40,821 nucleotides of DNA, taken from the IMG/VR virus record IMGVR_UViG_3300009593_000040, positions 1 to 40,821 of that record, one strand, 5' to 3'. Positions 8,784 to 40,008 of the stretch are shown in pieces. The DNA is from a virus. A program made the translations under genes and the position numbers. Positions within the stretch are counted from its first letter, which is position 1. Every line of letters starts with the position of its first letter. Under the pieces are notes generated by a model, which did not search any database, had not been told where the DNA came from, and saw nothing but the letters and a program-made list of their open reading frames with translations.

Positions 8784-8790
8784 TATTTAG
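8784..8790 (-). promoter_or_regulatory. Candidate late promoter motif CTAAATA
   Basis: CTAAATA on the minus strand, 35 nt ahead of the holin-like start, overlapping the stop of the transporter-like gene. It resembles the T4 late -10 element TATAAATA read with gp55. The same heptamer lies upstream of gp22 and gp67. Confidence 0.35.
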
Positions 8791-9227
8791 AAGCGAGAGA
8801 GGTATTTTGCGATATGTCCTACCCAAGGTAACAACGCAAAAGCCATCAAAAGGTTTGCTCCAGTATGAGCCATCGCTATTCTAAGAGTATCTCCTTTTGG
8901 GAAACCATCGGAAACGAGGAGACCCGCCAACCAAATGGTCCCAGTCGTGCCTAAATTTGCACCTAGAACTGCAGCGATTGCACTTGGGAGAGGGAGAGCC
9001 CCACCTGCGACTAAACCAATAATAGCGGTGGTACTGAGTGAAGATGACTGCCAGAGTAGGGTCATCACGATTCCTCCGATAAACATATAGATAGGGTTAC
9101 CAAGGAACCATTGTAGGTGGTCGATATTTCCCATTGACTTCATTCCGCCTGAGAACATCTTGAGACCGATATAAAAAACAATAAGACCAAATAAGGTCTG
9201 AAAAATAGGATTATGCACCCAATTCAA
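8787..9227 (-). CDS. Half-length Na+/phosphate cotransporter-like membrane protein
   Basis: 146 aa and almost entirely hydrophobic, with about four membrane helices. It carries the paired signature of Na/Pi cotransporters (NptA/YjbB family, PF02690): QSSSLSTTA at 60-68 and LGANLGTTGT at 88-97. Family members contain this repeat twice in inverted orientation and are 380 aa or longer. Here only one repeat is present, so it is either a half-transporter that must dimerise or a remnant with another role. The start is TTG at 9225-9227 with GGAGG five bases upstream, and it overlaps uvsY by 17 nt. Phosphate uptake during infection is a plausible role, since DNA synthesis needs phosphorus, but transport is not shown. 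Confidence 0.85.
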   Translation of the reverse strand: MNWVHNPIFQTLFGLIVFYIGLKMFSGGMKSMGNIDHLQWFLGNPIYMFIGGIVMTLLWQSSSLSTTAIIGLVAGGALPLPSAIAAVLGANLGTTGTIWLAGLLVSDGFPKGDTLRIAMAHTGANLLMAFALLPWVGHIAKYLSRF

Positions 9228-10530: not shown

Positions 10531-11976
10531 TTATCCTAACAGTCCTTTGACTGCGACACCTCTGTAGTATTCGTTGGCGTTAGCAGTTACGGCACCAGCT
10601 CCAACAGTCGCACCTTGACTGAATGGATTCTCAACTACGCCGTAGCGAGTCTTGAAACCAATTTTTGGTTGGAAGGTGTTTTCACCGATAGCACGAACCA
10701 TCTGCAGTGGAACGTAAGGACAATAGAAAAGTCCTGCGTCGTAGGCACTTGAACCTTTGTATCCAACTACGAAATAATGCATTCCGTTGTCAGAACCAGC
10801 GGTGAAGTTACCTGCATATGGGTCAACATATACTTTGAAGCGTCCATTGAGGACACCAGCGAATGTATTTCCTGTGTCATCGACATTGAGGGAATTCATT
10901 CCGTTGAGGATTGTTCCGTAATCGAGAACTCCTGCCATTTGAAGGGCTGACGCAACATCTGCTGAAGTGATGATAATGTTACCCTTACCGCGACGTGTTC
11001 CCTTAGCGACTTCGTTCGCCTCAATTTCCATTTGGAACATGAGGGACTTAAATCGTTCTACGGACCATCTTCCATCGTGGTCTGCTGAACCTGCGGACAG
11101 GTCAAGCGTTCCAGCAGCTGCATTATTAGCTCCACCTGCTTTGGCGATGGTGTAAACTGTTCTTACAATCTCTCTATTGATTTCAGCTAGAATCTCAGTC
11201 GAAAGAATGTTAGCGAGTTCGGTCTCAGCGTCAAGTCCGTGAACTGCACGGAGGTCTTGAGCCAATTCCATTGAATACTCACCTTTCAGTGCACGAGTTT
11301 TTGCCTCTACGGACATACGCTCGATACTGAATGCCATCTCGGCAATTTGACCAGCTTGAGTTCCTAATCCAGTCGATGCGTTTGCACGAGCTGAACCATC
11401 TCCTGCTGATTCACCTTCCAGAACGGAAGCACCTCCACCTTGACCACTAAGGGCTAGGTCGAGTGGGGAACCAGTTCCCTGTCCGAGAATAGCGGACTGG
11501 GCTGAAGTGATGGCGGAACCATCTGATGTGTTTTGTCCAGAATGGAAAGTGTTTGGTTCGTTATAGAAAGTCTCTGTTCCAGACTGACTGTCATAACGTG
11601 CACGCATTGCGAAAATGAGTCCTGTTGGTCCTGTCATAGGTTGGACACCACAAATGTCATATGCGATAAGGTTAGGCATTGCTCGCCTGACCAGGCTAAT
11701 AAGCACTGGGTCAACGAATTGAATGGCCTGGTCTCCAGTTCCTACTGAAGCACCAGAAAAACCACCTAATCCGTTAGCACCGCTCATCGCGTTTGTTGGT
11801 GCGGCCTCTGACAGAAACATGGAATGCTCAGAGACAAATTGCTCTCGCAGTGCGTTCTCTTGGTTTTCCAAAAGAATGGCTGTAACAGCCTTCTTGTAGG
11901 GGTCTTTGATTTCAGGTAAATCCTGATGCTCAAGGACTGGTCCCCACTTCTTCTGGAGTTGTTCCGAAAGATACAT
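10531..11976 (-). CDS. 23: gp23 major capsid protein
   Basis: 481 aa (T4 gp23 is 521). It forms the hexamers of the elongated or isometric head with an HK97-type fold. Recognised segments are the N-terminal scaffold-binding region (MYLSEQLQKKWGPVLEH), LISLVRRAMPNLIAYDICGVQPMTGPTGLIF read in two parts, and the C-terminal PLQMVRAIGENTFQPKIGFKTRYG region. A prohead-protease site of the L/I-x-E type, LSE followed by A, is at 55-58, close to the T4 cleavage at residue 65, so the mature protein probably starts at Ala58. The ATG has AGGAG five bases upstream. It lies 17 nt after gp22 and is followed by a strong terminator, fitting high late expression. Confidence 0.97.
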   Translation of the reverse strand: MYLSEQLQKKWGPVLEHQDLPEIKDPYKKAVTAILLENQENALREQFVSEHSMFLSEAAPTNAMSGANGLGGFSGASVGTGDQAIQFVDPVLISLVRRAMPNLIAYDICGVQPMTGPTGLIFAMRARYDSQSGTETFYNEPNTFHSGQNTSDGSAITSAQSAILGQGTGSPLDLALSGQGGGASVLEGESAGDGSARANASTGLGTQAGQIAEMAFSIERMSVEAKTRALKGEYSMELAQDLRAVHGLDAETELANILSTEILAEINREIVRTVYTIAKAGGANNAAAGTLDLSAGSADHDGRWSVERFKSLMFQMEIEANEVAKGTRRGKGNIIITSADVASALQMAGVLDYGTILNGMNSLNVDDTGNTFAGVLNGRFKVYVDPYAGNFTAGSDNGMHYFVVGYKGSSAYDAGLFYCPYVPLQMVRAIGENTFQPKIGFKTRYGVVENPFSQGATVGAGAVTANANEYYRGVAVKGLLG

Positions 11977-11993
11977 AGTTGCTCCTGTCTTGG

Positions 11994-13322
11994 TTAAGTT
12001 ACAATACGCTGTACTCTGCGTATCGCTTGAGTGTATCTGTCCATTGTGGGGTCTGCATCAGTTGATTCCTCTTCAGTATTTGTGACTGCTTCGGTCAACG
12101 TCTGTCGTGTTTCCTCAATCCCAGATGTTTCTCTTGTGTTAAAATATGACTCACGGAGAGTGTTTAATTTGGTGACAAACTCACTGTGGTCTTCGTATTG
12201 AACGGCCTCAGCCAGTTCACACATTTTGTCCGTTTCTACGGAAGTAAGACCTTCACAAGCTTCGGCTATTGCCTCAACTTTTTTGAAGTTCTTCATTTCT
12301 TTGAGGGCTTCAATGTTCGTTTGCATTTCAACATTGAGCTTCTCTTCTAGAGACTCGACCTTAGAAAATAACTGTTCTACAATGTCAACTTTCTCTTCGG
12401 GCACATCTACGTAATGTTTTTCAAAAAGTGACTTGAGTCCAGTAATGAAGTTCTCAGCGAGTTCGGCACGAATACCTCTCTCGATTGCGAGTTCATTCTC
12501 TTTACAGAATTCTTCTGCAACGTAGGTCAAGTAGTCATCGATTTTCTCAGCCATCGAAACCTCGGCCTCTGCGATTCCCTCTGCTATTTCAACAGCGGCA
12601 ACCTCTTCCAAAGTCTCAAGTCTTTCGTTGACTTGTTCCAGAATTGCTTTACTGACTACAGTCTCAAAGATAACTGAAGCTCGTTGTTTGAACTCCTCAT
12701 CAAGTTCTTGTCCTTCAAACAATTCTTGTGTTTGTGAACTCAGGTCGAGATTAAGGTCTTCAGCTTTCAGCTTGTCAACTTTGACGCTTGCTGGCTTAGC
12801 TTGAACTTCCTCTTCTTCTTCTGGTTCTTCCTCTTCGGCCTTTTTGGCTTCAGAAGCGATTTGTTGTTCTTCGGCCTCTTTGGTTTTCATACCAGAGAGA
12901 ACTTCTTCAACTTCTGTCTTTTTCATCGCCCCTAGTCGGTCTTGGACCTGTTTGAGCATCCCAAGCTTTGTGCGTGGGTTTGGTTGTACCTCTTCTTGCT
13001 CATCGTCATCATCGTCTTTACCCTTCGCTTTTTCGGCGTTGGCCTTGGCGAGGGCAGGGGGTAATTCGCCCTCTGCGACTTTTTCGACTTCGTCTTGGTA
13101 CATCATCTCACTAGAGTCAGATGGTTCTTTTATCTTGGTAGCGGAAGGTTCGGCAGATGCTTTTTTAGCTTTAGCGGCGCCCTTACCCGCAGTCTTTAGA
13201 CTGAGAGCTTTGGATTGTCCGTCTTCTCCGCCCATGTCTTCGGCTTTCCCCGATTGACCAGGCGTCTGCACTTTCGTTCCTTCTTCCTCAAGAATTTGTT
13301 CTAACATTTCTTTTTCTGTCAT
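11994..13322 (-). CDS. 22: gp22 prohead core scaffold protein
   Basis: 442 aa and very rich in Glu, Lys, Ala and Gln. It is the internal scaffold around which gp23 assembles and is destroyed by gp21. Identity rests on position between gp21 and gp23, on the long helical, acidic composition from about 190 to 400, and on the SxxETDKMCELAEAVQYEDHSEF-like core helices that marine gp22 proteins share. T4 gp22 is 269 aa; the extra length is mainly a low-complexity Lys/Glu/Pro segment between 20 and 190. Many L/I-x-E sites are present, as expected for a gp21 substrate. AAGGA sits five bases before the ATG, with a CTAAATA motif 35 nt further up. Confidence 0.9.
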   Translation of the reverse strand: MTEKEMLEQILEEEGTKVQTPGQSGKAEDMGGEDGQSKALSLKTAGKGAAKAKKASAEPSATKIKEPSDSSEMMYQDEVEKVAEGELPPALAKANAEKAKGKDDDDDEQEEVQPNPRTKLGMLKQVQDRLGAMKKTEVEEVLSGMKTKEAEEQQIASEAKKAEEEEPEEEEEVQAKPASVKVDKLKAEDLNLDLSSQTQELFEGQELDEEFKQRASVIFETVVSKAILEQVNERLETLEEVAAVEIAEGIAEAEVSMAEKIDDYLTYVAEEFCKENELAIERGIRAELAENFITGLKSLFEKHYVDVPEEKVDIVEQLFSKVESLEEKLNVEMQTNIEALKEMKNFKKVEAIAEACEGLTSVETDKMCELAEAVQYEDHSEFVTKLNTLRESYFNTRETSGIEETRQTLTEAVTNTEEESTDADPTMDRYTQAIRRVQRIVT

Positions 13323-13366: not shown

Positions 13367-14047
13367 TTACCGCAAACTAGAAGCGAAGATATCAAACTTG
13401 GAAATCCAAGCTTGTTGTCTTTCTTCCGCGAGCACACTAGATTTCGTGGCGGCAACAGAGTTTATTTGGTCTCTTGCAAATTCAAGGTCGACCTTTTTCA
13501 AAAGACCATTGTCCCAAATCCATTCCACACCTTCCATAATACCTTCTACGAAAGCATCTGGAGCGGATGGGTCTGCTACAATGTCGGCAGCGGTAGCTAA
13601 CATGAAATCTTTTTGGACTTCGTTTACTCCACTACTATTTGGTTTCAACGAGCCCATACCTCTCGAACTTACTCCTAACTTGGCTCCCTCATCAATAAGG
13701 TTCTTCACGATTTCTCCCATTGGTGTACTCATAATTTTAGCCCTACCAATATAATTGGAACCATCTTCGTTAAGTTCTTTAATCATGTGGGATGCACGAT
13801 CAAGGTTTACTGTAGGAGAATCGGGATGACCCAATTCACCAAAAGCTCTATTACTATTCACATACTCCTTCGTGTAGCGTTTAACTTCCTTCTGGAGTAC
13901 GGGCTTCGGGTAGACTCGACCATTACGATTCTTGATGTCTCCCTGCAGAAAAACCCCTTCTATGAAATAGTCTTTTTTGCCTGTATCGGATTCCGACACT
14001 ACGCTTTCACAGATTAGGTTTTCGTTAAATTCTTTAATTAGTTTCAT
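13367..14047 (-). CDS. 21: gp21 prohead protease
   Basis: 226 aa (T4 gp21 is 212). Serine protease of the herpesvirus-assemblin-like fold that cleaves scaffold, capsid and internal head proteins after L/I-x-E motifs. The catalytic His lies in GELGHP (His74) and the catalytic Ser in LGVSSRG (residues 124-130), as in T4. The segment KNRNGRVYPKPVL at 39-51 is also typical. It overlaps the basic gene by ATGA at 14044-14047. Position and order (gp67, basic protein, gp21, gp22, gp23) are those of T4. Confidence 0.96.
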   Translation of the reverse strand: MKLIKEFNENLICESVVSESDTGKKDYFIEGVFLQGDIKNRNGRVYPKPVLQKEVKRYTKEYVNSNRAFGELGHPDSPTVNLDRASHMIKELNEDGSNYIGRAKIMSTPMGEIVKNLIDEGAKLGVSSRGMGSLKPNSSGVNEVQKDFMLATAADIVADPSAPDAFVEGIMEGVEWIWDNGLLKKVDLEFARDQINSVAATKSSVLAEERQQAWISKFDIFASSLR

Positions 14048-25650: not shown

Positions 25651-26559
25651 TTACTGTTCGCGTATCACGCTTGGCTTATAATAGTCCAAGTTCTGACCGC
25701 TGTTCATTCCATAAGTGTCACCTTTGGAATAGTCTGTGTCGCTGAAGTCCAGATTACCACTTGAGTCTGTCTGAACTTGAACTCCGTAGAGATGCTCGAT
25801 AGTCTGTAAAGACTGGTCAAGGTTCATCCCTGCAGCTTTGTAGAGTTCCAATAGTCTGTATATTTGTAACTGGGAGATGTCAGGCTTGCCATATATCTCG
25901 GCTGAGTCGGCTATTTGTCCGTCCCACATTCCTTCGGCTATCATTTTTTCCTTGACTCCGAATTCTTTGTCAACTGCTTCCCAGTCAAATGAATATCTCT
26001 CGTTGAGGTATTCTTGTCTTTCTCGAATCATGTCATCGATATCTCGTATGCCTGTAAAGGCTTCGACTTTGACTTTTTCTTTTTTACCTGACATTTTTAC
26101 CTTTTCTTTATCTTTTTTAGGAGTAACAGGAGACTTTTTGCCCATACCTGTTATTGGTCGACCCATTGAGTCGGTAGCTGGTGGTGCTTCTGCGTCTGCT
26201 GCAGCTGGAGGTGGTGCTTCTCCTTCTGGTGGAGGCTCTTCGCCGTCTCCGACTGGTTCTCCTTTTTCATCACCTTTGGGTGGAGGTTCGCCCTCTCCTG
26301 CGTCATCTTTAGGTTTCTCTTCGCCTTCTCCCTCTTCTTTGTCGGGACAGACGCAGTCATCACCTTTTCCTTGACACTCAGGACAAACTTCGTCACCATC
26401 TTTTTCTTCTGGTTTCTCTTCACCATCGGCCTCAGCTTTTAACTGCTTCTCTTCTGCCTTCTTGGTCTTCTCTTCAGTCCTCGCCTTCCGCACTTCTTCT
26501 TTGTGAGTCGCGTGGACCATGTCTACGATTTTATGTGCTAGGTCAGCGTATTTGGACAT
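25651..26559 (-). CDS. Acidic low-complexity protein with a small CxxC motif
   Basis: 302 aa. Residues 20-150 are extremely low in complexity (Glu, Lys, Pro, Gly, Ala) and contain CPECQGKGDDCVCP at about 59-72, a possible small zinc-binding knot. The C-terminal half is a normal folded sequence with DIDDMIRERQEYLNERY, an FGVKEKMIAEGMW helix and LEHLYGVQVQ-like ends. The start is ATG 26559 with AAGGA four bases upstream. It overlaps the preceding gene by 17 nt. It may be a structural or scaffold-like protein; the function is unknown. Confidence 0.75.
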   Translation of the reverse strand: MSKYADLAHKIVDMVHATHKEEVRKARTEEKTKKAEEKQLKAEADGEEKPEEKDGDEVCPECQGKGDDCVCPDKEEGEGEEKPKDDAGEGEPPPKGDEKGEPVGDGEEPPPEGEAPPPAAADAEAPPATDSMGRPITGMGKKSPVTPKKDKEKVKMSGKKEKVKVEAFTGIRDIDDMIRERQEYLNERYSFDWEAVDKEFGVKEKMIAEGMWDGQIADSAEIYGKPDISQLQIYRLLELYKAAGMNLDQSLQTIEHLYGVQVQTDSSGNLDFSDTDYSKGDTYGMNSGQNLDYYKPSVIREQ

Positions 26560-28588
26560 AGTTTCCTTGAGATAAATATTCTTCGTTTCTGATTCTAGGG
26601 TCTACGACAAAACCATTCTGTTTCATCCACTCAGTTCCCATGAGGACTGGATAACCCATGTGAGACCTGTCTGATAATGAGAAATCAACCATATATGTCT
26701 TCCCTTTGAAGTGCATTGGTATCTCAACGACTGGTCGTTTTTCTTTGTCAGTTCCTACTGCACCCATGACAACCTCATAATCCTTAATAGGAAAAGTTGC
26801 CATCTTACCAGTATCACCAACTTTAAACATTGCTTTCTTTTTAGTGAGCTTTAAGTCACGAGCATCGAGTGTAGCAGAACCAGAGTTTCCAGTATCCATC
26901 TTACACATCATTTCTCCCCAAGCAAAACCTACTGGTTCAATTACTCCAATTGGTAAGGACTGTTTTGTCCAGTTGGTTTTCTCTGAGTAGAACTCGTAAA
27001 GAACTTCGATGAGTTGTTTTCCATCGATGTCTTCTTTCTCTTCGATATCGTAATATTTAGCTGAAACGCCTGGCGAGCCATTGACTTCTAGAACTGTCAA
27101 TTCCCCACTTCGGTTAACTGCAATATCAACTCCAGATAGTCTCATACCTAGAGCATCAGTCGCACGTTCAGCGAGTGACTTCATTTTATCTGAGGGTTTG
27201 TAAGCTTCAAAGTCTCCACCCAAATCTACATTAGTTCGAAAGTCTCCTTTCGCAAGATTTCGTTTAAGACCAAACCTAGCCTTTCCCTCCATACAGATAA
27301 CACGAACATCATACTTGAGGTCAAAGAACTCTTGAGCTATGAGTTGTGCGTCTGTCTGTTTTGAGAAAGCATCTACGACACCTCTGAGTGATGATTGACT
27401 TTCCATCTTCATCACTCCCTTACCCTTAGAACCTGTGATGGTCTTCAACATCATTGGGAACTTTCCTCCCAAAGCCTCAACCACCTCATCGGTTATTCCT
27501 GAATGAATAACTGCAGTCTTTGGAGTTTCAACACCTTTAGCCTGAAGAATACGAGCAGTAGACAACTTATTACGAGCTGACTCCATCGCGTCCATCGAGT
27601 TTAAGAATGGAACTCCTGCCTGTTCGACCGCTTTAGCAACACCCATTCGACCTTCGTCCATTAATACTGAACCAAGAGGAATAGCAAATGTGTTGTTTGG
27701 GTCCACAGACAATGACTTGTTCTCCCCATCATAGTTGTGGATGACTAGCTTGTTGTCCTCAACTAGATGTGTAAATGCTTTGTCAACATAGACAATATGT
27801 ACGTTTTCATGTTTCAACCAATATTGTTGAGGGGTTGAATCCTCTGGCTTAACCACACAAAGAACCAAAAATGTTGGAGTATTGGTCTCTTCCATCAATC
27901 TCTGATAGGAAACTTTTTCCTCCTGCATTTTTACTTCTTGCAATATTTCTCGTTCTGGAAAATACTCATCCCACTCAAACTCACTCCAGTCTTCTTTTAT
28001 CTTCATCGCCTTTCTTAATGCCATATACATTTTCTTGGCGTCGTTGTCGTTTAGTTTTGAAGGAACCCCTTGTTTGAAATCACCAAACTTGTTGGTGGCA
28101 GCGAGTTCTCTCATCTTACTAGCCGACATTCCAGAAACATCTTCTGCGTCTGGGTCTCGTTCTCCTGCTGAAACAACTTCAAAATGTTTTCCAACTGACT
28201 TAGTTGGGTCAGTATGGTTTACATATTTGGCGAACTGAGCTTTGAACTGAGGAACCCTGTCGGACCCTGCTACCATAATCAGTCTCGTATATCCTTTGTC
28301 ACGTAAGTCGTAGGCAACATCAAACGCGGTTCTAGCATCATCCTGTTGGACGAGCTTTCCAAAAGCTTTCTTCGCGATAGCGACTTTGAGTTTATATGGT
28401 AGGGGGTCTTTTTTTGGATTCTCTGTATGAGACAAGTATAGGAATGGGTCAGCGGAGTTCTTCTTTGCGACTTTCTCTATAGTTTTCGCAAGAAGTTCGT
28501 GACCTGTCGTTGGAGGGTTTAGACGGCCAAATGCAAATACTGCCGTCTTCCCAGTATCTTCTCTGAACTGAAAAAATGACTTACTCAT
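26543..28588 (-). CDS. Fusion: nucleotidyltransferase + RimK-like ATP-grasp ligase + RimB-like protease domain
   Basis: 681 aa with three recognisable domains. Residues 14-195 are a cytidylyltransferase-like fold: FGRLNPPTTGHE (20-31) matches the nucleotide-binding (N)PxHxGH motif and SGMSASKMREL (152-162) the ISSTxxR motif. Residues about 235-545 match RimK-type ATP-grasp glutamate ligases, with LKTITGSKGKGVMKME and a metal-binding VLEVNGSPG near 505. Residues 548-681 match the RimB/ATP-dependent zinc protease domain (PF05618), with the aspartic motif MDTGNSGSATL (Asp565) and SLSDRSHMGYPVLMGTEWM. In bacteria RimK adds glutamates to ribosomal protein S6 and RimB acts with it. The target here is unknown. 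It lies among virion-like genes. Confidence 0.85.
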   Translation of the reverse strand: MSKSFFQFREDTGKTAVFAFGRLNPPTTGHELLAKTIEKVAKKNSADPFLYLSHTENPKKDPLPYKLKVAIAKKAFGKLVQQDDARTAFDVAYDLRDKGYTRLIMVAGSDRVPQFKAQFAKYVNHTDPTKSVGKHFEVVSAGERDPDAEDVSGMSASKMRELAATNKFGDFKQGVPSKLNDNDAKKMYMALRKAMKIKEDWSEFEWDEYFPEREILQEVKMQEEKVSYQRLMEETNTPTFLVLCVVKPEDSTPQQYWLKHENVHIVYVDKAFTHLVEDNKLVIHNYDGENKSLSVDPNNTFAIPLGSVLMDEGRMGVAKAVEQAGVPFLNSMDAMESARNKLSTARILQAKGVETPKTAVIHSGITDEVVEALGGKFPMMLKTITGSKGKGVMKMESQSSLRGVVDAFSKQTDAQLIAQEFFDLKYDVRVICMEGKARFGLKRNLAKGDFRTNVDLGGDFEAYKPSDKMKSLAERATDALGMRLSGVDIAVNRSGELTVLEVNGSPGVSAKYYDIEEKEDIDGKQLIEVLYEFYSEKTNWTKQSLPIGVIEPVGFAWGEMMCKMDTGNSGSATLDARDLKLTKKKAMFKVGDTGKMATFPIKDYEVVMGAVGTDKEKRPVVEIPMHFKGKTYMVDFSLSDRSHMGYPVLMGTEWMKQNGFVVDPRIRNEEYLSQGNYVQIR

Positions 28589-29445: not shown

Positions 29446-29572
29446 CTTCGTCCTTCTTTGTGTATACTTGATTGACCGCATCAATGAGTGACCTTGTAAG
29501 AGGGTCGTGATTGGTCTCGTTTGGGTTAAGTCTTTTCTGTCTAGAAAACCTGTTTAAAAGTGGATTGTCCAT
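29408..29572 (-). CDS. Small unknown protein, 54 aa
   Basis: ATG at 29570-29572 overlaps the TAA of the preceding gene (TAATG). The 54-aa frame, MDNPLLNRFSRQKRLNPNE and onward, ends at TGA 29408-29410, 38 nt inside the next gene. It is polar with a helical stretch (SLIDAVNQVYTKKDED) and no cysteine. The coding signal is the perfect fit between the two neighbouring genes and the phage-typical overlaps. I do not recognise a family. Confidence 0.65.
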   Translation of the reverse strand: MDNPLLNRFSRQKRLNPNETNHDPLTRSLIDAVNQVYTKKDEDETGAPDQERSE

Positions 29573-30828
29573 TAGCCCCAGTTCTTTATTGCATTAAAAT
29601 TGTTCATCGAGAACTCCAGTCTATCTATAAGTTTGACTGCTTTGCCTCCAGATATTGCTACAAAACCTTCTGGGTTGGTAACTTTAAAACCTGTGTCCGT
29701 CTTGACGAAAGTATCTGTCATGCCTTTAATTTTTTCCAGTTTATGAGTGATAAAGTTTTTACAAACTTGGAAAGCTCGCATGACATCGAATATCATTTTT
29801 ATCTGGTCTTTTCGGTCCTCTAGAGTATCTAGGAGCAACTGCATCGCTGCGGTCTTCTTGTCCTTGGTCGCTTGAGTCTTGACTTTATCTATCGCTTTCA
29901 AGTGTTTTTCTTCGATATGTTTTATGACTCCTGCCGCCATTTTTGCCGTATCTCTGATGGGTTGTCCTGCTCTAACGTTCTTATTTATGTACGCTTTCAT
30001 GTCAACTGTCAAGGCGTTATCTTCAGCGATAGCGTTCAATACTGACTTGTCGACTTTTCTCCCTAGAGTATCTATGAGTTTGAGAAATCTGTCTATTATT
30101 GCTGTTTGTCTTTTGGTCCAGTTTACAGTTCCGCCCAAGTCCTTAACTGATGCGTCCTTTATCCAACATCCTTTCGCTTTCGTTCTTGATGCGTCAACTC
30201 CAAAAGAAGCTTTCATATCTGCGAGAGTTGGACCTCCAGTATATTTGGTATGGAATACAATTCCTAACTGAGCTTTCTTCATCTCTTTTTCAAGAGGAGT
30301 TCCAGAAGGAACTGCATAGACAATGGTATTTGGTTGGAAAGTCGTATATTGCTTTCCCTCGATTGTCTCTGAAGCAAAGTCTCCAGTTGTCCACATCATG
30401 TCTCCCTGCCAAACTTCCTTCGCAGGAATGTTGGCCGTAGACAATAACTTGAGGGCTAGTTTTAGTTTTGGATTGAGTCCTGAAGATGCGTAGTATTCGT
30501 CTGCATCTGCATCGGACTTAACAAGTTTGGGGTTGTTCGCGAAGACACCTTTTGTTCCAACAAAGAAACGACCATCGGCTGGGTCTTTACCACAAAAAAC
30601 AGCAGGAGCGCCGTCCCACTTCATTGTGATATTCGTTTCTCCTTTAGACTGTCCTGCGAGCATGTCTCGTAAGGCGACAAGGAAGTCGCGAGCCGTCTTG
30701 ACTCCTTCGACTCCACCATTGAGAACTTCATCTTCCAAGTGTTCAAGATGAACGTTCTTTCCTTCTTTAGATTCAACGAAAAACCATTTTCCGTCATCTG
30801 TCTCCGTTACCTGTTTGAAGCTGAACAA
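29572..30828 (-). CDS. Phage protein with ligase-like KxDG motif (DUF6267-like)
   Basis: 418 aa. ITMKWDGAPAVF at 67-78 carries the lysine-containing KxDG motif I of the DNA/RNA ligase and capping-enzyme superfamily (Lys70). A later block, NPEGFVAISGGKAVKL (385-400), resembles motif IV (EGxV) followed by the motif V lysine. Between them lies a helical insert with a coiled segment (EEKHLKAIDKVKTQAT). I associate similar proteins in marine T4-like phages with the unknown-function family DUF6267, but this is memory, not a search. Ligase activity is untested. The start is TTG at 30826-30828 with AGAGGA five bases upstream; it overlaps the methyltransferase by 35 nt. Confidence 0.7.
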   Translation of the reverse strand: MFSFKQVTETDDGKWFFVESKEGKNVHLEHLEDEVLNGGVEGVKTARDFLVALRDMLAGQSKGETNITMKWDGAPAVFCGKDPADGRFFVGTKGVFANNPKLVKSDADADEYYASSGLNPKLKLALKLLSTANIPAKEVWQGDMMWTTGDFASETIEGKQYTTFQPNTIVYAVPSGTPLEKEMKKAQLGIVFHTKYTGGPTLADMKASFGVDASRTKAKGCWIKDASVKDLGGTVNWTKRQTAIIDRFLKLIDTLGRKVDKSVLNAIAEDNALTVDMKAYINKNVRAGQPIRDTAKMAAGVIKHIEEKHLKAIDKVKTQATKDKKTAAMQLLLDTLEDRKDQIKMIFDVMRAFQVCKNFITHKLEKIKGMTDTFVKTDTGFKVTNPEGFVAISGGKAVKLIDRLEFSMNNFNAIKNWG

Positions 30829-39037: not shown

Positions 39038-39289
39038 TTATTCGCGAGGTTTCCGTTTAGAACCTTTGAGTCGCGACTTTTCTGCCCGTCCTCGATTGAC
39101 GGAGGCATCTTCAAAGCCTACTATTTTCTTACCTTTATGGGAAGCGTCAAGACCATCACCATTTCCGTAAGTACCTTTTTCTCTATTGTACTTTACCAGT
39201 TCGGCTCTGTATTTAATTCGGTCTGGTCTCCCTTGGTAGTTTGCATATTCTTTTTTATAGTCTCTGGTATATTCCATGAATGTCATCAT
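39038..39289 (-). CDS. Small basic phage protein, 83 aa
   Basis: 83 aa, 83-residue protein of a type common in T4-like phages: YTRDYKKEYANYQGRPDRI, then GNGDGLDASHKGKKIVGFEDAS and a basic tail NRGRAEKSRLKGSKRKPRE. The DYKKEYANYQG start and the GDGxDxxHK core recur in many phage genomes. The DxxHK arrangement is reminiscent of small nuclease-like folds, but I cannot show activity. The start overlaps the lipase stop (ATGATGA); two adjacent ATGs are possible. It ends just before the promoter. Confidence 0.8.
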   Translation of the reverse strand: MMTFMEYTRDYKKEYANYQGRPDRIKYRAELVKYNREKGTYGNGDGLDASHKGKKIVGFEDASVNRGRAEKSRLKGSKRKPRE

Positions 39290-40008
39290 TTGTGCCTTTT
39301 TAATACTTTGAGGTAACCATCTATTGAGTGGTCAAGTGCGTCTATTTTACCAAAAGACTGTCTACTTTCTTCTCCGCCTTCAACCCATTTTAAAGTTTCT
39401 GCATCAATTTTAATTCCTGTGTGTGCGTAAGGAAAAGGCGGTACATAAGGAACTGGGTCACTTTCAAAGACAACGCGAAAGTGGGGTATTTTAAATTTGT
39501 ACCACCCTGTTACTGCTATTTTCGGTGAACCAAAAGTGTAAACCTGAACTATATGACCTTCTCTTTGATACCAGATTGATAATATCTGAGCTATCGCCCC
39601 GCCCAGAGAATGTCCAGTAATATAAAGAGTTTTGTCCTTCTTATGGTTTTCTAACGAGTCGTGGATTTTGAGAGCCGCATCATGGAAGCCTCGGTGAAAT
39701 AAAATTTCCGCTTTCTTTTCATGATAAAATCGGGCGTCGATATCAGAGACTACATTTCCAGCGTTCGCCGTTCCGCGAATCGCTATTATGGTTACACCAT
39801 CTTTGTAATACATTCTATACATCAAGGCACCAACTTTGGTTCCACTCTCATAAACATCTACGCAATACTGAGCCATCTCTTGTAGCTCTTCAACTTTTAC
39901 TGGTAGAGTCTCAGGACTTCCCTTTTCTCCATCCTCATAGAGAAATGGATTGAGAGCTGAACACGAACCAACAAATAAACATAATGCTATAACTAACTGT
40001 TTCATCAT
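39286..40008 (-). CDS. Lipoprotein class 3 lipase-like hydrolase
   Basis: 240 aa. Lipase class 3 fold (alpha/beta hydrolase): GHSLGGA with nucleophile Ser133, Asp183 in ESDPVPYVPP and His226 in LDHSIDG make a complete triad at the usual spacing. IAIRGTA at 74-80 supplies the oxyanion region. The N terminus MMKQLVIALCLFVGSC is a lipoprotein signal with a good lipobox (VGSC, Cys16), so the enzyme should be lipid-anchored at the cell envelope. Phospholipid or acyl-ester cleavage in the host membrane, for lysis or exclusion of other phages, is a possible role. It overlaps neighbours by ATGA-type junctions. Confidence 0.88.
   Translation of the reverse strand: MMKQLVIALCLFVGSCSALNPFLYEDGEKGSPETLPVKVEELQEMAQYCVDVYESGTKVGALMYRMYYKDGVTIIAIRGTANAGNVVSDIDARFYHEKKAEILFHRGFHDAALKIHDSLENHKKDKTLYITGHSLGGAIAQILSIWYQREGHIVQVYTFGSPKIAVTGWYKFKIPHFRVVFESDPVPYVPPFPYAHTGIKIDAETLKWVEGGEESRQSFGKIDALDHSIDGYLKVLKRHK

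Follow-up and report, generated by a model that had tools for sequence, protein, structure and literature searches.

The virus fragment IMGVR_UViG_3300009593_000040 from the IMG/VR database (hereafter the window, meaning the whole 40.8-kb stretch analysed, which is part of a genome and not all of it) encodes a protein of 681 amino acids in which a nucleotidylyltransferase (NTase), a RimK-type ATP-grasp ligase and a RimB-type retropepsin-like protease follow one another in a single chain. Searches and structure prediction indicate three conserved domains with intact active-site residues, T4-like capsid-targeting peptides at the start of many family members, and a gene for a putative prohead protease in the same window. 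We propose, with about even confidence, that the protein is packaged in the phage head and injected, and that like T4 Alt it then modifies a protein of the host, in its case by writing and trimming polyglutamate; both the packaging and the substrate are what we infer from these features.

Domains and conserved residues of the fusion protein

A first-pass annotation made from the sequence alone had proposed this open reading frame (ORF), without stating its strand, and had placed domains at residues 1-200, 230-545 and 548-681 with Asp565 as a catalytic residue. The ORF is real and lies on the minus strand, the boundaries and Asp565 are right, and Pfam, PHROG and predicted structure uphold all three domain identifications. 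Since four further IMG/VR contigs carry the same three-domain protein at 83-100% identity, the fusion is not an assembly artefact. Ratios of nonsynonymous to synonymous substitution (dN/dS, Nei-Gojobori method, against three diverged copies) were 0.08-0.09 for the NTase (one pair saturated), 0.05-0.06 for the ATP-grasp domain and 0.03-0.07 for the RimB domain, each of which is under strong purifying selection; the linker at residues 201-236 gave 0.20-0.35, above all three. An AlphaFold2 model, built from an alignment of 82 proteins from the window and related loci, had a mean predicted local distance difference test (pLDDT) score of 88 and left residues 1-9 and 212-233 largely disordered. The parts of the protein are as follows.

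26543..28588, minus strand: whole ORF, 681 amino acids, ATG start; NTase, RimK-type ATP-grasp and RimB-type retropepsin in that order (domain searches and AlphaFold2)
28556..28588, minus strand: N-terminal peptide MSKSFFQFRED, residues 1-11, at the position of a targeting sequence; disordered in the model, a weaker match than in two-domain relatives
27989..28552, minus strand: predicted NTase domain, residues 13-200 (T27xGH30, S155, R160), from PHROG and PPAT fold matches
27881..27988, minus strand: glutamate-rich disordered linker from NTase to ligase, residues 201-236 (pLDDT below 50 at 212-233; dN/dS as above)
27884..27916, minus strand: KVSYQRLMEET, residues 225-235, internal targeting-like motif with an LxE site, directly before the ATP-grasp domain (T4-peptide score and conservation)
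26954..27880, minus strand: RimK-type ATP-grasp ligase domain, residues 237-545 (PF08443, structure match to RimK 7qys, invariant residues)
26573..26953, minus strand: RimB/RloA-type retropepsin-like domain, residues 546-672 (D565-T-G; K563, R618, R641), from PF05618, RloA 9g59 and invariant residues

The ligase domain matches PF08443 (RimK) at residues 338-522 (E 4.7e-28, 98.5 bits against a cut-off of 21), and its model aligns with RimK 7qys at Z 28.0 and a root-mean-square deviation (rmsd) of 2.6 over 283 residues (VIA-align; Pseudomonas and E. coli RimK). Residues K341, K382, D427, R429, R443, D488, E501 and N503 are invariant in 39 sequences, so that the ATP, Mg and glutamate residues are all present; R429 and N503 align with R189 and N262 of Pseudomonas RimK, which hold the glutamate chain (PMC10092738). 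The TIGR00768 RimK-family cut-off was narrowly missed (135.9 bits against 143.4), and on that score we describe the domain as RimK-like and do not file it as a TIGR00768 member.

The C-terminal domain matches PF05618 at residues 600-665 (E 4.6e-8, 33.5 bits against a cut-off of 27) and RloA 9g59 (E 9e-16). This comparison was made by sequence because ATP-grasp matches fill the full-length structure-search list; our predicted structures are monomers, and RimB and RloA are defined as homodimers with two catalytic Asp residues. In a 20-sequence alignment D565, G567, N568, R618 and R641 are invariant and K563 nearly so, and D565-x-G-N occurs in all of the 39 RimK-type proteins except one that has no RimB domain. 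K563, D565, R618 and R641 match K46, D48 (catalytic), R114 and R137 of RloA, of which K46, R114 and R137 contact polyglutamate and are conserved in RimB, two of them mattering by mutation (PMC12239564). The protease domain therefore retains RimB features for polyglutamate specificity. It fell short of the NCBIfam RloA1/2/3 cut-offs (38.8 bits against 210, and lower) and, judged by these scores, is not an RloA orthologue. The first-pass annotation had named two things that would refute it, a C-terminal domain with no match to PF05618 or misplaced catalytic residues; PF05618 matches, and Asp565, the ATP-grasp lysines and the Mg and glutamate residues are in place.

Residues 10-200 match PHROG "cytidyltransferase" models (E 5e-51), and the NTase folded alone is predicted to be of PPAT/NMNAT type (PPAT 3pxu: Z 13.8, rmsd 2.8, 152 residues aligned). 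Its catalytic residues T27xGH30, S155 and R160 are invariant or nearly so in 51 sequences. With both the (H/T)xGH and S-x-S/T-x-x-R motifs and the predicted fold, we take it to be a PPAT/NMNAT-fold nucleotidylyltransferase, though fold and motifs do not fix its substrate. The first-pass annotation had the enzyme class right and the motifs wrong: the first is TxGH (T27-x-G-H30, as in PPAT), not HxGH, and S155-A-S-K-M-R160 stands for ISSTxxR. A sequence search of the PDB with this domain returned only spurious S-layer matches, and it was the predicted model, compared with known structures, that settled the fold. The further suggestion that the NTase activates the substrate of the ligase is without support, because RimK-type ATP-grasp ligases generate their own acyl-phosphate and because many phages encode the NTase by itself, and there it has been seen as a virion protein.

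Targeting-like peptides, gene fusion and virion evidence

In T4, a targeting peptide draws proteins into the prohead, where gp21 removes the peptide and the proteins remain in the head (PMC5694885, PMC3012670). IPII and IPIII begin with MKTYQEFIAEA in the T4 record, and the two-domain relatives of the window protein (RimK-RimB without the NTase) begin with MKAPKFKEFISEA, MEKFKSFITEA, MQVPKFRDFINEA, MKVPNFKEYLTEE and similar peptides; in most of those examined, a T4-like targeting start ends in an [LI]xE site of the prohead-protease type. When N-termini were scored against the T4 IPII/IPIII peptide only, 61% of 72 RimK-RimB proteins reached the threshold of ≥18, compared with 6% of 1630 other ORFs on those contigs and, within the RimK-RimB proteins themselves, 0.8% of 745 internal windows; a pattern-based count gave 58/77 RimK-RimB starts versus 13/626. 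These N-termini are related sequences and the counts are not independent, while the contrast is understated because many high-scoring other ORFs themselves look targeted. NTase proteins share such a start (MKTYRKFIIEA in locus L123, MKKFSAFLTEA in cyanophage Syn33), and where the window protein has FFQFRED, relatives read FFQLRE followed by D or S, comparable to MAKINELLRE of T4 gp24.

Similar repeated starts appear elsewhere. In a different phage group, a gene array that includes RimK-RimB (locus L032, 7314-9978) shares an MRLxxY(L/I/M)xE start that looks like the group's own targeting peptide, and unrelated proteins near RimK-RimB share MRLQRYLTE/MRLQKYLIE starts in L013 (a 50,986-base contig) and L026 (a 235,765-base contig).

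A second targeting-like motif lies between the NTase and the ligase. KVSYQRLMEE is the top T4-peptide match anywhere in the window protein, although in close relatives other stretches score about equally. The pattern EEKxxYxRLxE is kept among four diverged copies within an otherwise variable linker, and the seven fusion linkers of all lineages hold 17 [LIMF]xE sites before the ligase against 7 after shuffling (0/5000 shuffles reach 17). From these motifs we infer that a complete RimK-RimB gene with its targeting peptide was probably fused downstream of an NTase gene that had one too, giving products that the prohead protease could separate.

Scans of IMG/VR found at least 573 stretches with the RimK-RimB part, the best 80 of which are nearly all two-domain proteins of ~460 amino acids without an NTase, and at least 596 relatives of the NTase. 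The fusion is not unique to the window phage: among the loci compared, four others encode NTase-RimK-RimB (L198, L236, L259 and, with an insert, L192), L186 encodes NTase-RimK without RimB, and in L231 RimK-RimB and the NTase are adjacent genes. On a tree the fusions fall in three groups, two of them forced by supported branches; a single gain with later losses may be an alternative to repeated gains. Because the linkage recurs, in fusions and in adjacent genes, it suggests that the two enzymes are used together.

An apparent archaeal member was discarded: locus L089 (PAWD01000042.1), filed as a Thaumarchaeota metagenome-assembled genome (MAG), is a T4-like phage contig, with a gp43 ~50% identical to that of phage Mosig and with gp44, gp45 and regA, and its placement is a binning error. 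Beyond L089, matches in the genome scan were limited to ATP-grasp, apart from a weak one. On a Parcubacteria MAG contig (L090, 248-6769), about six consecutive ORFs match the RimK-RimB profile (RimK-like ATP-grasp) as a tandem array.

Both domain families have published links to virions. Mass spectrometry of S-SM1 virions detected T4-GC190, a core protein of cyanophages and putative cytidylyltransferase (PMC3037559), and the GC190 protein of Syn33 is a homolog of the window NTase. Virion preparations of S-CBWM1, S-SZBM1, S-SCSM1 and S-CREM2 likewise yielded NMNAT- or cytidylyltransferase-like proteins (PMC10665884, PMC9602691). For RimK-RimB, gp66 of Yersinia phage YerA41 is such a protein and is annotated "structural protein" in its record; 63 particle proteins of that phage were identified by liquid chromatography-tandem mass spectrometry. 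These data concern relatives of single parts, not the window fusion, and they support the virion link better than an annotation limited to the sequence could know. That annotation had placed the gene in a virion gene block, which the neighbours, mostly uncharacterised, do not bear out; its connection to the virion survives through the targeting-like N-termini and the published proteomes.

The window carries T4-like marine myovirus genes (gp23, gp22, gp21, tail tube, UvsY and DNA polymerase), and its major capsid protein shares 58-60% identity with those of marine T4-like phages, including members of the Kyanoviridae. Three features bear on head assembly or on the surroundings of the fusion.

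13367..14047, minus strand: gp21-type prohead protease, candidate cutter of the LxE sites (phrog_207 head maturation protease, E 2.7e-80)
10531..13322, minus strand: major capsid protein gp23 and scaffold gp22 genes (phrog_138, E 2e-154; phrog_237, E 1e-68)
29572..30828, minus strand: DUF6267 gene, two genes upstream of the fusion and in the same direction (PF19782, E 2e-102)

The KWDG and late EGFVA...K motifs of DUF6267 are kept in at least 90% of 119 sequences, and we take them to be like those of ATP-dependent nucleic-acid (RNA/DNA) ligases. The gene lies ≤4 kb upstream of the NTase in 43/69 judgeable loci, and its relatives often start with a T4-like targeting peptide, such as MKQYKQFLAEA. 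The DUF6267 protein is, by these motifs, a possible packaged ligase. Elsewhere in the window, all on the minus strand, are a short membrane protein with GANLGTTGT that resembles a Na/Pi cotransporter fragment (8787-9227), a predicted lipoprotein with a GHSLGGA lipase motif and a signal-like N-terminus (39286-40008), and a NifU/IscU-like Fe-S scaffold domain close to the contig end (40530-40805).

Proposed action on a host protein and competing explanations

If the protein follows the route of T4 internal proteins, its targeting peptide would probably draw it into the prohead, where the gp21-type protease would probably cut after LxE and leave the enzymes in the head, to be ejected with the DNA like T4 Alt and the internal proteins. 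In the window protein, a cut at the junction LxE would separate the NTase from the RimK-RimB enzyme, and the NTase would then be a separate NMNAT/PPAT-like activity delivered alongside. Within the host, the RimK domain may extend the C-terminus of a protein with alpha-linked glutamate residues, and the RimB domain may cut back chains of more than about five; with writer and trimmer in one polypeptide, tags would be short and of even length already in the first minutes of infection. T7 phosphorylates S6 and S1, changing translation. By precedent the likeliest target is host ribosomal protein S6, with altered translation as the outcome, but this is a guess.

The literature describes RimK as extending a C-terminal glutamate chain that RimB trims, and RimB as requiring six contiguous Glu residues, or five including the genetically encoded terminal one. 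Among the proteins read in the window, itself a partial genome, the longest Glu run is five, in gp22, so a tail made by RimK would be the natural RimB substrate, and prohead and scaffold proteins are disfavoured as substrates. The first-pass idea of an add-and-remove modification seems reasonable by analogy, as RimK and RimB do this in Pseudomonas.

Several observations weigh against a packaged enzyme that glutamylates a host protein. The SFFQFRE start of the window protein is a weaker targeting peptide than those of its relatives, and sharing an N-terminal motif is no proof that a protein is packaged. Mosig-like phages have the gene away from the head genes, with regA on one side and gp43 (DNA polymerase) on the other; a regA neighbour of phage RimK was already noted in 2008 (PMC2530865). 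Proteins in virion proteomes can be co-purified contaminants (PMC10665884). The ligase scores far below the NF007764 S6-ligase equivalog cut-off (82.7 against 331 bits), a score on which the name "S6 ligase" should not be given to it. The RimK acceptor-side residues S7, R8 and R64 are apparently not conserved in the window clade, where the R64 region reads IPLGSV and many other phage members have R, although the alignment is uncertain there. A bacterial RimBK hybrid cleaved polyglutamate and did not glutamylate RpsF (PMC11957791).

More tentatively, the product may be a polyprotein with two targeting peptides that is cut into NTase and RimK-RimB before injection, the latter acting as writer and eraser on a host protein and a targeted DUF6267 protein belonging to the same injected set.

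It is unlikely that the protein is never packaged, being made after infection to modify S6 or another host protein, with the N-terminal motif just a common start peptide. The replication-cluster position in Mosig and L089, beside regA and gp43, where early or middle expression is expected, fits such a course, and the 2008 view likewise had the enzyme act in the cell (PMC2530865). However, the motif resembles the T4 peptide much more closely than background sequences do, and more closely than other stretches of the proteins that carry it; both domain families have members reported from purified particles, and T4 ipII, ipIII and alt likewise lie outside the head gene cluster.

Action on the phage's own material seems improbable. 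A protein sitting inside the prohead could glutamylate or trim head-internal proteins, or could make a free polyglutamate polyanion in head or cell. The scaffold and a number of the neighbouring gene products are highly acidic, and RimK of E. coli and Pseudomonas forms free poly-alpha-glutamate, stimulated by RimB (PMC11957791). The five-residue limit on Glu runs in the window, as far as this part of the genome goes, stands against this, given that RimB needs six internally, and useful amounts of ATP would not be expected in a prohead.

Least probable is a small-molecule role, in which ligase and NTase serve one cofactor or metabolite pathway (NAD-, CoA- or F420-like glutamylation, or a LysX/ArgX-like carrier): the NTase is of NMNAT/PPAT fold, the two enzymes are repeatedly fused or adjacent, and LysX (Z 27.6) and ArgX (Z 27.3) tie with RimK (Z 28.0) in the predicted-structure comparison, but RimK is clearly nearer by sequence (145 versus 81 bits) and it is hard to see what a polyglutamate-specific protease fused to the ligase would do with a cofactor that carries a single glutamate.

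Relation to known systems and significance

The first-pass annotation held that RimK and RimB are separate proteins in bacteria, which is true of Pseudomonas but not always, given the RimBK hybrid (PMC11957791) and a phage RimK-DUF785 protein (PMC2530865). The latter was described by Monier et al. in 2008 from marine phages of the Global Ocean Sampling data as RimK with a C-terminal DUF785/PF05618, and S6 modification was proposed. The window protein resembles it in both respects, a RimK ATP-grasp followed by PF05618 and a T4-like marine phage; the NTase fusion, the targeting peptide and DUF785 as a RimB protease are not described in the accessible part of that paper. RimBK of Desulfotalea psychrophila likewise joins ligase and polyglutamate protease in one chain, but its RimB is N-terminal rather than C-terminal, and it is cellular, with no NTase and no capsid targeting (PMC11957791). 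With this phage case of 2008 and a bacterial hybrid of 2025, the RimK-RimB fusion is not novel.

Compared with RimK and RimB of Pseudomonas and RimK of E. coli, the window protein shares the fold, the ATP/Mg/glutamate residues, the catalytic Asp and the polyglutamate-binding residues; in Pseudomonas, however, RimK and RimB are separate genes (with RimA), and the window protein is below the S6-ligase cut-off and seems to differ in acceptor-side residues. T4-GC190 (PMC3037559) and the virion NMNAT-like proteins (PMC10665884, PMC9602691) share a homologous NTase, a targeting-like start and presence in particles, without the RimK-RimB fusion. T4 Alt and IPI-III are alike in the proposed route of N-terminal peptide, gp21 cut and ejection with DNA, which for the window protein is read from sequence; Alt ADP-ribosylates RNA polymerase, modifying the host at once, and its enzyme domains are not homologous to those of the window protein.

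A search of the literature for phage-encoded glutamylation found nothing. The papers that we did find (most subscription papers lying outside the search) make no mention of the NTase fusion, the targeting peptides, the polyglutamate-contact residues in phages or the junction site. What is new appears to be the context, namely the NTase fusion, the targeting-like peptides and the junction site.

Although RimK homologs of marine phages have been on record since 2008, no role has been assigned to them. If the enzyme is carried in the head, its action would precede any phage gene expression, and an old question would become testable, namely whether polyglutamylation of S6 or another host protein shifts translation toward the phage. 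A chain that combines the ligase with a protease that trims its product would offer a simple way to set the length of a tag. Kyanoviridae-like phages abound in the ocean, and the targeting-peptide approach may also allow their injected proteins to be listed from sequence alone.

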